This document shows, piece after piece, positions 36,935 through 40,956 of a stretch of DNA of 64,000 nt. A model generated the notes under the pieces. The model was not told the DNA's origin, searched no databases, and saw only the letters and a program-made list of their open reading frames with translations. The stretch lies in NCBI GenBank assembly GCA_018223125.1, contig JAAEZA010000016.1, positions 1-64,000 on the forward strand, written 5' to 3'. The DNA comes from Paracoccaceae bacterium (GTDB lineage Bacteria > Pseudomonadota > Alphaproteobacteria > Rhodobacterales > Rhodobacteraceae). How positions within the stretch are numbered: position 1 is the stretch's first letter; the number at the start of each line of letters is the position of its first letter. A program made the translations under genes and the position numbers.

Positions 36935-37483
36935 TCAGCTTTGCCCCTTCAGTCTGGAGGCCGCCCGCGCATCCCGCGAGGTCGGCGCGAGCCAGATACC
37001 AAAGAACCGGTCCCGCAGGCGCGGATAGGCCAGCGTGCAGGTCTTGCGACCATTCACAAACAGGCTGGCGCGATCCGGCCCTTGGGATACCCCCGTGACC
37101 CGCACGCCCCTGTCCACATCCACAAGGCAGTTGCGGAGCCGCTGTTCAAATGCGCCGTGATCGGAAACGCGGCCCCCTTCTACCCTGACGATTTCCTTAA
37201 CCGTGGTTCTTGCCAGCAGTTCGGCGCTGAACGGATAGGCATAGCGCAGGCTGAGCGCAAAAGGCTTGCGCTGGTCGAATGTCCCTGCGGATGGGGTCCA
37301 AAGCTCTGCATCGTAAAGCTTTCTGCCCCACAGCCGAGCGCTGGCTGTTCCTTGCAGTGACGCAGCACCGAGTGATCGGGCGACCTCTGCCGGTGCGGAT
37401 TGCGCCAATGCCTGCCCCGTATTCAACGAAGCCGAAAGAACAGCAAATAGAAAGGCTGCGAAAACAATCCCTGTAAATTTCAT
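36935..37483 (-). CDS. Chalcone isomerase-like periplasmic protein
   Basis: A 182-residue protein after a Sec signal peptide (MKFTGIVFAAFLFAVLSAS with a cut near ALA/QSA). The middle shows the bacterial chalcone-isomerase-like pattern: LWGRKLYDAELWTPSAG, FALSLRYAYPFSAELLARTTVKEI and VTGVSQGPDRASLFVNGRKTCTLAYPRLRDRFFGIWL. The start is the ATG at 37483, which overlaps the DUF1365 stop (ATGA) and has GGAGGTGTC before it. Homologues of the fold bind fatty acids in plants, so a periplasmic lipid-binding or -modifying role is a fair guess. Confidence 0.85.
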   Translation of the reverse strand: MKFTGIVFAAFLFAVLSASLNTGQALAQSAPAEVARSLGAASLQGTASARLWGRKLYDAELWTPSAGTFDQRKPFALSLRYAYPFSAELLARTTVKEIVRVEGGRVSDHGAFEQRLRNCLVDVDRGVRVTGVSQGPDRASLFVNGRKTCTLAYPRLRDRFFGIWLAPTSRDARAASRLKGQS

Positions 37484-38244
37484 GACGACACCTCCTGTTC
37501 GGGCGGTTCCGGCCGGTTGCGAAAACCCGCCCCCTTCCACCAGAGCCGCAGTGCCTGCCAGTAAATCAGTCCGAGCACCCGCAAAGAGCCGAACGGCCGC
37601 GCCAGTGCCATTCCAAGGATAGAGCGGTTGGACAAGGGCCGCCGCTTGCCGTGGAACGTAGCGATCACCCCGCTCTCCTTGCTGCGGAAATCTATGACGA
37701 TACCGATATGCCGGTCTGTCACATCAAAGCGGAAGCTGTATTCGCCGCTGACAGGCTGGAACGGCGACACATGAAATATCTTGCGGGCCTTCAACCGGTC
37801 CGTGGGCAGGATTGTCGCCAGATCAGTGTGATGGCACAGATAGGAATGACGGTCCCCGTAGGTGTTGTTTACCTCGGCAATGACAACTCGCAGGGTATCT
37901 TGGGCATCAAACACCAGCCAGAAACTGACCGGGTTGAAGACATGACCGAAAATACGCGGTTGGGCCAGCAACAGGATTTTTCCGTTACACTGCGCATCCA
38001 TGCCCAGTGTGACAAGTATCCCGCGCACCCATTCCACACCCTGCCCCGCACCGCGCGCGCCGCCGTGATCTATATCGTGGAGCGCAGTCAGGTTGGCACG
38101 GTTGCGCGAGAACAGGAACGGTTTGGGGGCATCCCCGGACAGATCAGACAACACATAATCCACACGGTATCGAAAGGCGTTTTTCACCACCCCGTGCCGC
38201 CCGTGATAGGTGGTTGCGCAGATATGTTCGGGGGTTACGCCCAT
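37480..38244 (-). CDS. DUF1365 family protein
   Basis: A 254-residue protein starting near the family signature HGRHGVVKNAFRYRVDYVLSDL, then LLAQPRIFGHVFNPVSFWLVFD, VIAEVNNTYGDRHSYL and KIFHVSPFQPVSGEYSFRF. No enzyme activity is established to my knowledge. It overlaps the preceding flavoprotein gene by 10 bp and the next by 4 bp. DUF1365 genes pair with a NAD(P)/FAD oxidoreductase and often a Cfa-like methyltransferase in fatty-acid-modifying loci; the methyltransferase is absent here. Confidence 0.88.
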   Translation of the reverse strand: MGVTPEHICATTYHGRHGVVKNAFRYRVDYVLSDLSGDAPKPFLFSRNRANLTALHDIDHGGARGAGQGVEWVRGILVTLGMDAQCNGKILLLAQPRIFGHVFNPVSFWLVFDAQDTLRVVIAEVNNTYGDRHSYLCHHTDLATILPTDRLKARKIFHVSPFQPVSGEYSFRFDVTDRHIGIVIDFRSKESGVIATFHGKRRPLSNRSILGMALARPFGSLRVLGLIYWQALRLWWKGAGFRNRPEPPEQEVSS

Positions 38245-39521
38245 TGCGGAATCAGTTTCATATGATCGGCCACATCTACCGCGCTGGAATACCCGTCTTC
38301 ATGAAAGCCGTTGCGCAGATAGGCACCGCAGAACCAGGTATTGTTCACCCCCTGCAACGCCTTGATGCGGCTTTGCGCAGCAAGAGCTGCGCGGTCGAAC
38401 ACCGGATGCATGAAGCTGGTTTCTTCATAGATCAGTTCGTCACGAATGGTGCTGGTCGGGTTCAGAGAGCTTAGCAGCAGATCGTCATGGGGAATGGATT
38501 GCAAGCGGTTCATCCAATAGGTAATGCCCACCGGATCGGACGGGTTCTGATGTGTGGTTGTATAGGTCCAACTGGCCCAGCAGGATTTGCGCTTGGGCAT
38601 GATGGAAGGATCTGCATGAAGCACGGCGCGGTTGCGTTGATAGCTGATCGCCCCGAGGGTAGAAAGCTCTTCGGCTGTGGGATCGGCCAACATGGCCAGC
38701 GCCTGATCCGAATGACAGGCAAACACTACACGGTCGAATTGCTCCCATGTGCCACCTTCAAGACGGACCTCTGCGCCGGCACTATTGCGACGCACGGCCA
38801 CCACATTGGCTCCGGTGCGAATTTCGCAGCCGTGCTTGCGCATCGCGAGTTCGAGCCTGCGGACATATTCGACAGAGCCTCCCTTCACCGTATACCACTG
38901 GTGCTGGCCGTAAATGTTCAGCAGGTTATGGTTCTGGAAAAACCGCGTCAGCGCCTGTGCCGGAAAGGACAGCATCTGTTCCAGCGGCGTTGACCAGATC
39001 GCACCCGAAAACGGCAAAAGGTAATATTTCTGGAACCACTCGCCCATCCGCAAGCGATGCATAAGCTGGCCCAGCGTCAGATCGGGATCTGCGGCCATAT
39101 CCACCGCTTTGGCATTAAACCGCAGGATATCCACCAGCATGCCCAGAAACAGCGGATTCACGATATTCCGTTTCTGGGCAAACAGTGCAGCGAGATCGTT
39201 CAGCGCATATTCGATCCGCCCGTCATCAGCAGAGACACCAAAGCTCATGTCGCTTTTGATGACCGGCACATCCAGTTCGTCGAAAAGTCCGGTCAGACGC
39301 GGATAATTCGCATAGTTGAAGACGATGAATCCGGTGTCTACCGGCTGGTCCCCGTTTTTACCCGCTGTCACCGTGCGGGCATGTCCGCCCAGCCGCTTTT
39401 CCGTTTCCAACAGGGTCACATTATTGGTTTTGGACAACAGGTGCGCGGCCCCCATACCGGAAACCCCCGCACCTATAACAGCGATCTTGACCGGAGCGGC
39501 GGGAGCGAATTCAAATGGCAT
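38235..39521 (-). CDS. FAD-dependent amine-oxidase-like flavoprotein, first gene of the putative RpoE operon
   Basis: About 428 residues. The dinucleotide-binding motif is VIGAGVSGMGAAHLL, followed by LLETEKRLGGHARTV. The family C-terminal FAD region lies around NNTWFCGAYLRNGFHEDG. The start at 39521 has AAGGAAG seven bases upstream and follows a TGATCC-N18-TAACGG promoter-like sequence; a longer frame to 39578 would begin upstream of that -10. The protein matches in position and type the R. sphaeroides RSP_1091 flavoprotein, RpoE-controlled and linked to furan fatty acid formation. The function here is by analogy. Confidence 0.88.
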   Translation of the reverse strand: MPFEFAPAAPVKIAVIGAGVSGMGAAHLLSKTNNVTLLETEKRLGGHARTVTAGKNGDQPVDTGFIVFNYANYPRLTGLFDELDVPVIKSDMSFGVSADDGRIEYALNDLAALFAQKRNIVNPLFLGMLVDILRFNAKAVDMAADPDLTLGQLMHRLRMGEWFQKYYLLPFSGAIWSTPLEQMLSFPAQALTRFFQNHNLLNIYGQHQWYTVKGGSVEYVRRLELAMRKHGCEIRTGANVVAVRRNSAGAEVRLEGGTWEQFDRVVFACHSDQALAMLADPTAEELSTLGAISYQRNRAVLHADPSIMPKRKSCWASWTYTTTHQNPSDPVGITYWMNRLQSIPHDDLLLSSLNPTSTIRDELIYEETSFMHPVFDRAALAAQSRIKALQGVNNTWFCGAYLRNGFHEDGYSSAVDVADHMKLIPQWA

Positions 39522-39547: not shown

Positions 39548-39577
39548 CCGTTACGCCCCGGCGGATGGACTGGATCA
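39548..39577 (-). promoter_or_regulatory. Putative RpoE (ECF sigma) promoter of the minus-strand stress operon
   Basis: On the minus strand TGATCC (39577-39572), an 18-bp spacer, and TAACGG (39553-39548). TGATCC is the known RpoE -35 in Rhodobacter sphaeroides. The predicted start leaves a short leader of about 20 nt to the ATG at 39521, which fits. Confidence 0.7.
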
Positions 39578-39609: not shown

Positions 39610-39639
39610 TGATCCAACTGCGTTTGGCGCACGTATCGT
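39610..39639 (+). promoter_or_regulatory. Putative autoregulatory RpoE promoter of rpoE-chrR
   Basis: TGATCC (39610-39615), an 18-bp spacer, and TATCGT (39634-39639). The spacing is identical to that of the divergent promoter at 39548-39577, and the two -10 elements share TA(A/T)CG. The transcript would start near 39646, so the rpoE ORF cannot begin at the GTG at 39638. Confidence 0.7.
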
Positions 39640-39739: not shown

Positions 39740-40309
39740 ATGGGCCCTACTGAGCAACCGCGCAGTCAAGGTGACGATTGGAATGCGTATATCCTGCGTG
39801 TGCGCAACCACCGCGACGAGGCTGCTTTCTCCGCCCTGTTCAACCATTTCGGACCGCGCATTAAGGGGTTCCTGATCAAATCGGGGGCCAGCGGTACAAT
39901 GGCCGAAGAATGCGCGCAGGAAACCATGATTACCCTGTGCCACAAGGCCCATCTGTTCGACCCCTCCCGTGCGACGGCGGCAACGTGGATCTTTACAATT
40001 GCACGTAACAAGAAAATCGACGCGTTCCGGCGGGCTGCACGGCCCGAACCCGAAGACCTCCCCTGGGGACCGGAACCGGAGCCCGAAGCAGCAGATGCCC
40101 TGGCGCTCAGTCAGGAAACCGAACATCTGGCAACGGCACTGGATGCCTTGCCGGAAAAACAAAGAGAGATTGTGAAACGCGCCTATTACGGCGATTTGAC
40201 CCATTCGGAACTGGCTGAAGAAACCGGCCTTCCGCTTGGCACGATCAAATCCCGCATTAGGCTGGCGCTGGACCGCCTGCGCCAGACACTGAACGAGCCT
40301 GTGAAATGA
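39740..40309 (+). CDS. rpoE: ECF RNA polymerase sigma factor RpoE (singlet-oxygen stress)
   Basis: A 189-residue ECF sigma factor. Region 2 has DEAAFSALFNHFGPRIKGFLIKSG, then EECAQETMITLCHKAHLFDPSRATAATWIFTIARNKKIDAFRR (regions 2.2-2.4). Region 4 has ALPEKQREIVKRAYYGDLTHSELAEETGLPLGTIKSRIRLALDRLR, with the helix-turn-helix at LTHSELAEETGLPLGTIKSR. The start ATG at 39740 has AAGG upstream and lies downstream of the promoter. chrR follows with a 4-bp overlap. In R. sphaeroides the orthologous pair controls the transcriptional response to singlet oxygen. Confidence 0.93.
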   Translation: MGPTEQPRSQGDDWNAYILRVRNHRDEAAFSALFNHFGPRIKGFLIKSGASGTMAEECAQETMITLCHKAHLFDPSRATAATWIFTIARNKKIDAFRRAARPEPEDLPWGPEPEPEAADALALSQETEHLATALDALPEKQREIVKRAYYGDLTHSELAEETGLPLGTIKSRIRLALDRLRQTLNEPVK

Positions 40310-40956
40310 CTGTAAAACATCTTTTGAACGAACAACTGCTGATGGGCTATGCCGCTGGCATCCTGCCCGAAGCCTTTGACCTTGTTGTCGCCTCCCATCT
40401 GAGCCTGTCAGACGAGAGCCGCGCCATGCTGGGCGGTTACGAGGCCGTAGGCGGCGTGGTGATGGAAGAAACCGAAGCAGTCGCGATGGGGGCGGATGCG
40501 CTCGGCTCGGTGATGGCGCGAATCAAATCCGGTAAAGCGATCACCGAAAAGCCTGCCCTGCGCGCCACCAGACCCGGTGTCTTGCCAGAACCCTTGCAGG
40601 AATACGTGGGCGGCGATGTAGACAAGATCAATTGGCGACCGCTGGGTGGCGGCGTGAAGCAGGCGATCCTGCCCACCTCCGGCAAGGCGCAGGCGCGGCT
40701 GCTGCTGATCCCGGCCGGTGCAGCCGTGCCCGATCACGGCCACCGCGGCACCGAACTGACGCTGGTGCTGCAGGGATCATTTTCCGACGAAGTGGACCGT
40801 TTTGCCCGTGGCGACATTGAAATCGCGGACGAGGATCTGAACCACCAGCCTGTTGCCGGCCCTGAAGCGGATTGTATCTGCCTTGCAGCAACGGACGCGC
40901 CATTGCGGTTCAACAGCCTCATTCCGCGGCTGCTCCAGCCGATCTTCCGGATTTAG
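40306..40956 (+). CDS. chrR: ChrR-type anti-sigma factor with the two zinc-binding cysteines replaced by serine
   Basis: A 216-residue ChrR homologue. The N-terminal anti-sigma domain has His5 and His31, but the residues at the positions of Cys35 and Cys38 in R. sphaeroides ChrR are Ser35 and Ser38 (SHLSLSDESRA; codons tca and agc). The C-terminal cupin domain keeps its metal ligands: H144, H146, E150 and H180. DCICLAATDAPLRF near the C-terminus is conserved. It should bind RpoE and release it under singlet oxygen; zinc retention in the anti-sigma domain is doubtful. The last 38 bp are shared antisense with the DUF3422 gene. Confidence 0.93.
   Translation: MTVKHLLNEQLLMGYAAGILPEAFDLVVASHLSLSDESRAMLGGYEAVGGVVMEETEAVAMGADALGSVMARIKSGKAITEKPALRATRPGVLPEPLQEYVGGDVDKINWRPLGGGVKQAILPTSGKAQARLLLIPAGAAVPDHGHRGTELTLVLQGSFSDEVDRFARGDIEIADEDLNHQPVAGPEADCICLAATDAPLRFNSLIPRLLQPIFRI

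Follow-up and report, generated by a model that had tools for sequence, protein, structure and literature searches.

Replacement of zinc ligands in the anti-sigma factor ChrR of a Rhodobacteraceae bacterium and some of its relatives

The anti-sigma factor ChrR is described as zinc-dependent (PMC6852236). In R. sphaeroides its anti-sigma domain has the zinc ligands H6, H31, C35 and C38 (PMC6852236), and zinc binding is required both for inhibition of its partner RpoE, a sigma factor of group ECF11 (PMC6852236), and for formation of the complex (PMC6852236, citing Newman 2001; PMC6432622). The precise role of this zinc in the singlet-oxygen response is stated as unknown in PMC6852236, and a sensing role for the zinc site has been argued from a peptide model (PMC6432622). 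A chrR gene found in a 64,000-nucleotide stretch of DNA, called the window here, raises the question of whether a ChrR can still work after its zinc ligands have been replaced.

The identity of the gene is well established by the matches in Table 1. The match to TIGR02451 is full-length, with ChrR residues 5-216 lying on profile positions 1-216 above the curated cut-off, while the cut-off of the equivalog model NF051881 (cadmium/peroxide/UV-responsive ChrR) is not reached, with 156 bits vs 300. The gene directly follows that of its ECF sigma factor, its start overlapping the rpoE stop by four bases (spacing -4), and R. sphaeroides RpoE is the closest solved sigma factor to the RpoE of the window. 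A search of the window's genome for a second ChrR gave a single match even at E <= 10. On the other side of rpoE, the divergent promoter points towards the genes of the amine oxidase, DUF1365 and transporter types, the first two standing in the places of RSP_1091 and RSP_1090, which we take to be of the flavin amine oxidase and the DUF1365 type, respectively. RSP_1090 and RSP_1091 adjoin rpoE-chrR in R. sphaeroides and in many Rhodobacteraceae (PMC7074977). A frame of 201 residues 3' of the DUF1365 gene (36935-37540, - strand) has no Pfam match at E <= 0.001.

Table 1. Features of the chrR locus, in window coordinates
Feature	Position	Strand	Evidence
DUF1365 gene, in RSP_1090's place	37480..38244	-	PF07103, E 7.3e-69
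Flavin amine oxidase family gene adjoining rpoE, in RSP_1091's place, start inferred	38235..39521	-	PF01593
Divergent RpoE-type promoter TGATCC-N18-TAAC, 5' of the stress operon	39550..39577	-	read by eye
RpoE-type promoter TGATCC-N18-TATC, 5' of rpoE	39610..39637	+	
rpoE, ECF sigma factor (189 aa), start inferred	39740..40309	+	2q1z_A (R. sphaeroides RpoE), E 5.2e-73; Pfam Sigma70_r2, r4
chrR, anti-sigma factor, 216 aa	40306..40956	+	TIGR02451, 217.5 bits (cut-off 124.5); 2z2s_B, E 1.7e-72
Leu6 (ctt) for zinc ligand His6	40321..40323	+	alignment to 2z2s, codon
His31 (cat), sole retained zinc-ligand position	40396..40398	+	alignment, codon
Ser35 (tca) for zinc ligand Cys35	40408..40410	+	alignment, codon
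Ser38 (agc) for zinc ligand Cys38	40417..40419	+	alignment, codon
ChrR cupin-like domain (Cupin_7)	40612..40893	+	PF12973, residues 103-196, 55 bits (cut-off 27)

The alignment with 2z2s_B covers residues 1-205 of the window ChrR and is free of gaps through residue 75, so the R. sphaeroides numbering is valid in the anti-sigma domain. At the four ligand positions the window protein reads L6, H31, S35 and S38, which departs from the ZAS motif H/C-X24/25-H-X3-C-X2-C. A sequence-only reading of this DNA had reported serine at both cysteine positions and a retained His31, and codons and alignment bear this out; however, it understated the loss, since it listed His6 as a ligand and missed the change to leucine. 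His5 (40318-40320) is present, but in the HH pair of ChrR the second His alone binds zinc (PMC6432622), and thus three of the four ligands are gone. His5 occurs in all 236 sequences of the family set defined below, both the 208 with the full ligand set and the 28 without it, and therefore probably matters for some reason other than zinc. Residues 1-78 contain no cysteine and no histidine besides H5 and H31, which makes a zinc-thiolate site moved elsewhere in the domain unlikely. From these residues we infer that the anti-sigma domain of the window protein binds no zinc.

We then present an overall view of this state, calling zinc-less any ChrR whose residues at positions 6, 31, 35 and 38 are other than His-His-Cys-Cys (HHCC); all samples were non-random. 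A ChrR match at E <= 1e-5 was found in 23 of the 33 genomes of the window's genus, where the 22 sequences with an anti-sigma domain divide into 15 zinc-less ones, in eight residue states, and 7 HHCC ones. Matches were found in 243 of the 295 genomes of the family sample, from which the 149 best-scoring sequences outside the genus (L024-L052, L155-L274) were included, about 90 lower-scoring ones being left out; 10 of these 149 are zinc-less. A scan of named genomes added 80 loci, a few of them from outside the family, e.g. Devosia. The family set, consisting of Rhodobacteraceae and a few neighbours, thereby has 252 loci with 237 different sequences, and among the 236 with an anti-sigma domain 208 are HHCC and 28 are not. 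Finally, other alphaproteobacterial families were sampled from a class-wide search matching 150 of 385 genomes; 11 of the 85 sequences taken (the 25 ranked highest plus 60 hand-picked further down the list, chosen blind to sequence) are not HHCC, these proteins being more distant and their motif alignment less sure.

The nearest relatives of the window protein, L002 and L003, have the same Leu-His-Ser-Ser state and are protein-identical to the named records of Amylibacter cionae (L053) and Neptunicoccus sediminis (L054), so the Ser-Ser pair is a lineage trait, as an alignment of homologues had been proposed to establish. Zinc-less ChrR is also carried by Fluviibacterium aquatile, Meridianimarinicoccus roseus and several metagenome bins. 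An assembly or sequencing artefact, which the sequence-only reading had named as a possible refutation, is hardly conceivable: the same residues recur in L002, L003, L053 and L054, three separate codons are changed, and no point speaks in its favour.

On the whole, the 39 zinc-less proteins (28 of the family set and 11 class-wide) all lack C38. Both cysteines are absent from 33 of them, C35 being retained in the other 6, and 5 retain none of the four ligands. The substitutes differ by group, with Leu, Val, Ile, Thr, Gln, Ser or Asn at position 6, Ser or Asn at 35, and Ser or Ala at 38. In the R. sphaeroides protein C35, unlike C38, is accessible at the surface (PMC2877774); as to the order of cysteine loss, the counts of 0/39 for retained C38 vs 6/39 for retained C35 come from too few separate events to prove one. 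Other anti-sigma-domain cysteines, at 33, 43, 44, 51 or 56, are found in seven zinc-less proteins of the family set (L004-L006, L014-L016, L022), and Cys56 also in 27 of the 208 HHCC proteins. The ten genomes of the genus without chrR (G003, G007, G008, G011, G012, G014, G015, G021, G023 and G030, some of them incomplete) have no RpoE match either at E <= 1e-20. In an eleventh, G009, RpoE likewise has no match, and ChrR is present as a fragment where a contig ends.

These counts bear on the idea, also raised by the sequence-only reading, that zinc is still bound at the same site through other ligands. In such a site His5, His31 and acidic residues, for example, would bind zinc more weakly. H5 is universal in the family set, H31 is kept in 24 of its 28 zinc-less members, and some zinc-less relatives have a cysteine at 33, 43, 44 or 51, all of which would suit such a site. 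However, the window domain offers two histidines and no cysteine, H31 is itself replaced by Gln in four relatives, and the five proteins retaining none of the ligands point the same way, so we consider this improbable.

Is the zinc-less chrR a working gene? We calculated dN/dS by the Nei-Gojobori method for 17 pairs, several wider ones being saturated at silent sites and giving no value. Within the Leu-His-Ser-Ser trio (window, L002, L003) the ratio is 0.054, 0.061 and 0.032 for the anti-sigma domain and 0.025, 0.045 and 0.072 for the cupin domain, and the anti-sigma domain of four HHCC pairs gives 0.018-0.138 for comparison. An rpoE-like gene lies upstream of chrR, on the same strand and within 1 kb, at all 236 loci; the spacing falls between -33 and 19 bases for at least 219 of them (counting the 20 commonest spacings). 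The promoter TGATCC-N17-19-T[AT] is found 5' of rpoE at 26 of 28 zinc-less vs 202 of 208 HHCC loci, with a chance rate of a few per cent per locus by a rough estimate made without a shuffled control. A dead gene is rejected on the low dN/dS, the rpoE linkage, the retained promoter and the relatives with the same state; judged from its sequence and its relatives, the window chrR does not look dead. The sequence-only reading had come to the same view of the gene, and its view that the setting looks functional is supported too, with rpoE directly upstream and an RpoE-type promoter in place.

The cupin domain shows the opposite pattern from the zinc site. Its metal ligands, which had been reported as intact and are so by alignment, are H144, H146, E150 and H180 in the window protein, corresponding to H141, H143, E147 and H177 of R. 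sphaeroides. This HHEH set is retained in 36 of the 39 zinc-less proteins (25/28 in the family set, 11/11 class-wide); over all rows the count is 320 of 323, namely 235/238 for the family set, including R. sphaeroides and the truncated L018, and 85/85 class-wide. The only exceptions are L015 with HRES (genome G013), L016 with HLEH (G016) and L022 with FQQE (G019), all zinc-less and all in the window's genus; in the sub-branch of G013, G017 and G019 the cupin ligands are lost in two of three. Pairs with L015 and L022 have cupin dN/dS of 0.21 and 0.34 vs 0.14 and 0.07 for the anti-sigma domain. The lost ligands together with the weaker cupin constraint suggest that the sensor may be failing in these two proteins, and L015, L016 and L022 are possibly signal-blind anti-sigma factors or cases of early decay. 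Their cupin losses, and the dependence of inhibition on zinc binding in R. sphaeroides (PMC6852236), would fit a ChrR that is weakened, inhibits RpoE poorly and leaves the stress operon partly constitutive. For the window gene this reading, one of three offered by the sequence-only reading, is quite unlikely, because the constraint on the trio is strong in both domains (dN/dS 0.03-0.06 and 0.03-0.07), several genomes share the state and the promoter is kept.

The remaining option, inhibition of RpoE independent of zinc, was the likeliest of those three, and we hold it probable that the window encodes a working ChrR whose zinc-free anti-sigma domain still holds RpoE and whose cupin domain does the sensing. 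The three-helix bundle, which is pinned by zinc in R. sphaeroides, would here be held by side-chain packing, with a hydrophobic residue in place of His6 and small residues in place of the two cysteines, as in RseA, whose anti-sigma domain is zinc-free. A bundle stabilised by zinc in ChrR and by protein-protein contacts in RseA is described in PMC6852236. Such a ChrR would still sequester RpoE, and its release under photooxidative stress would be triggered by way of the cupin, which keeps its metal site. In R. sphaeroides, ChrR without its cupin domain inhibits RpoE and gives no response, E147 and H177 both being needed (PMC6852236); a zinc-less protein with an intact cupin should therefore be capable of inhibition and response alike, provided that the anti-sigma domain folds. 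The zinc requirement in R. sphaeroides counts against a working zinc-free ChrR. An AlphaFold2 model of the window protein (mean pLDDT 88.3) has helices at 9-17, 22-34, 36-55 and 65-74, i.e. the four helices of the class I anti-sigma fold as in 2z2s and 2q1z, and its six best Foldseek matches are all ChrR chains, with fold matches to 2q1z and 2z2s; the model agrees with such a bundle but says little on this point, since metals are ignored and it leans on an alignment of mostly HHCC relatives.

How often the zinc ligands were lost was estimated on trees. On ChrR+RpoE trees built without the ligand columns, 5 changes are needed with FastTree and 7 with a quick IQ-TREE run (28 zinc-less and 60 HHCC rows). 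On a tree of rpoB from 56 genomes, of which 25 are zinc-less, 8 changes are needed; the bootstrap of this tree had not settled. For the groups A1, A2, B, C and D, which were named after the trees were seen, the rpoB data reject a single clade of all five (p 1e-56, G328 left out) as well as A1+A2 (p 2e-5). These parsimony counts suggest five to eight origins of zinc-less ChrR; the safe statement is that, barring gene transfer, the family would have had at least two.

The alternative is that few zinc-less ancestors, or a single one, passed the state on by descent or transfer without repeated loss. It is consistent with the gene tree, in which joining A+B or A+C is not rejected (AU p 0.63 and 0.57) and scores above the quick tree, and with the rpoB tree, in which neither B+C+D as one clade (p 0.36) nor a grouping (p 0.26) of A1 with G018, itself partly changed, is rejected. 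The rejections are further weakened by the post hoc groups and by the HHCC genomes lying between A1 and A2. Most of the latter, namely G026, G029, G032 and G001, fall inside the window's genus by rpoB and have a distant HHCC ChrR of 47-50% identity (L017, L019, L020 and L021). The placement of these proteins elsewhere in the gene trees suggests that the rpoE-chrR pair was replaced there by gene transfer; as their ChrR was probably acquired, only G010 and G031 support two native losses between A1 and A2, and transfer could explain the rest. Against this stand the eight changes on the rpoB tree, the rejection of both joint clades and the different substitutes of the zinc-less groups at 6, 35 and 38, and we regard few ancestors as unlikely.

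Several other positions, ChrR 3, 19, 46, 148 and 191 and RpoE 100 and 145, differ between zinc-less and HHCC proteins. The Fisher p values of 8e-5 to 4e-16 count related sequences as independent and belong to positions that these same data had singled out. Residue 191 (R. sphaeroides numbering) is Ala in 204 of 208 HHCC proteins and non-Ala in 16 of 28 zinc-less ones, a difference that is not significant given relatedness; this change in the cupin may have gone along with the loss of zinc. Only 5 independent pairs lie on supported branches, so that no test of compensation could reach 0.05; with relatedness taken into account the candidate substitutions fall short of significance, and no compensation is claimed here.

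More generally, we tentatively propose that the zinc finger is a dispensable scaffold, shed repeatedly and with Cys38 each time, and the cupin metal site the conserved singlet-oxygen sensor. If so, zinc-less ChrR would be a cupin-only sensor that thiol oxidants or metals no longer trigger falsely, and a case in which inhibition and sensing are naturally separate.

As for the phototrophic setting, the photosynthetic reaction centre was found in 9 of 10 tested zinc-less genomes outside the genus and in 1 of 15 inside it (10 of 25 in total, the genomes of L108, L113 and L130 being left out). The family sample has it in 121 of 295 genomes, a comparison made without statistics because the ten zinc-less genomes are related. 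Zinc-less ChrR thus occurs in genomes with reaction centres, and we reject finger loss as a simple consequence of ended singlet-oxygen production after phototrophy was lost. The window's genome has no reaction centre, and in its own lineage finger loss coincides with the absence of phototrophy. Among the genomes of the genus, G011 (98% complete) has a reaction centre and is apparently a phototroph without the rpoE-chrR pair. Since natural ChrR proteins without the zinc cysteines and with an intact cupin exist, some of them in reaction-centre genomes, it becomes directly testable whether singlet oxygen is sensed by the zinc finger, the cupin or both, with natural genes in place of inactivating point mutants.

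Among known systems, RsiW of B. subtilis is membrane bound and retains the zinc motif, RseA of E. coli and RskA of M. tuberculosis are membrane proteins, and none of them is known to have a cupin. R. sphaeroides ChrR (2z2s, 2q1z) is the closest to the window protein, having the same family, domain order and cupin ligands with 58% identity in the fold match, and differs in the three anti-sigma zinc ligands that the window protein lacks. RsiW resembles what is proposed for it in staying bound to SigW without zinc (PMC5358783). The anti-sigma domains of RseA (PMC6852236; PMC7406223) and RskA (PMC7406223) are without a zinc motif, although those of RseA and ChrR have no significant sequence similarity (PMC6852236). 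We found no report of a zinc-free ChrR in the literature searched, with subscription papers mostly outside it, and nothing relevant there on sigma factors of Neptunicoccus or Amylibacter. Zinc-free anti-sigma domains are already known in general, and the groups AS19-1 and AS27 each hold members with and without the zinc motif (PMC7406223). In ChrR, likewise, the motif used for calling zinc-binding anti-sigma factors varies inside one family.
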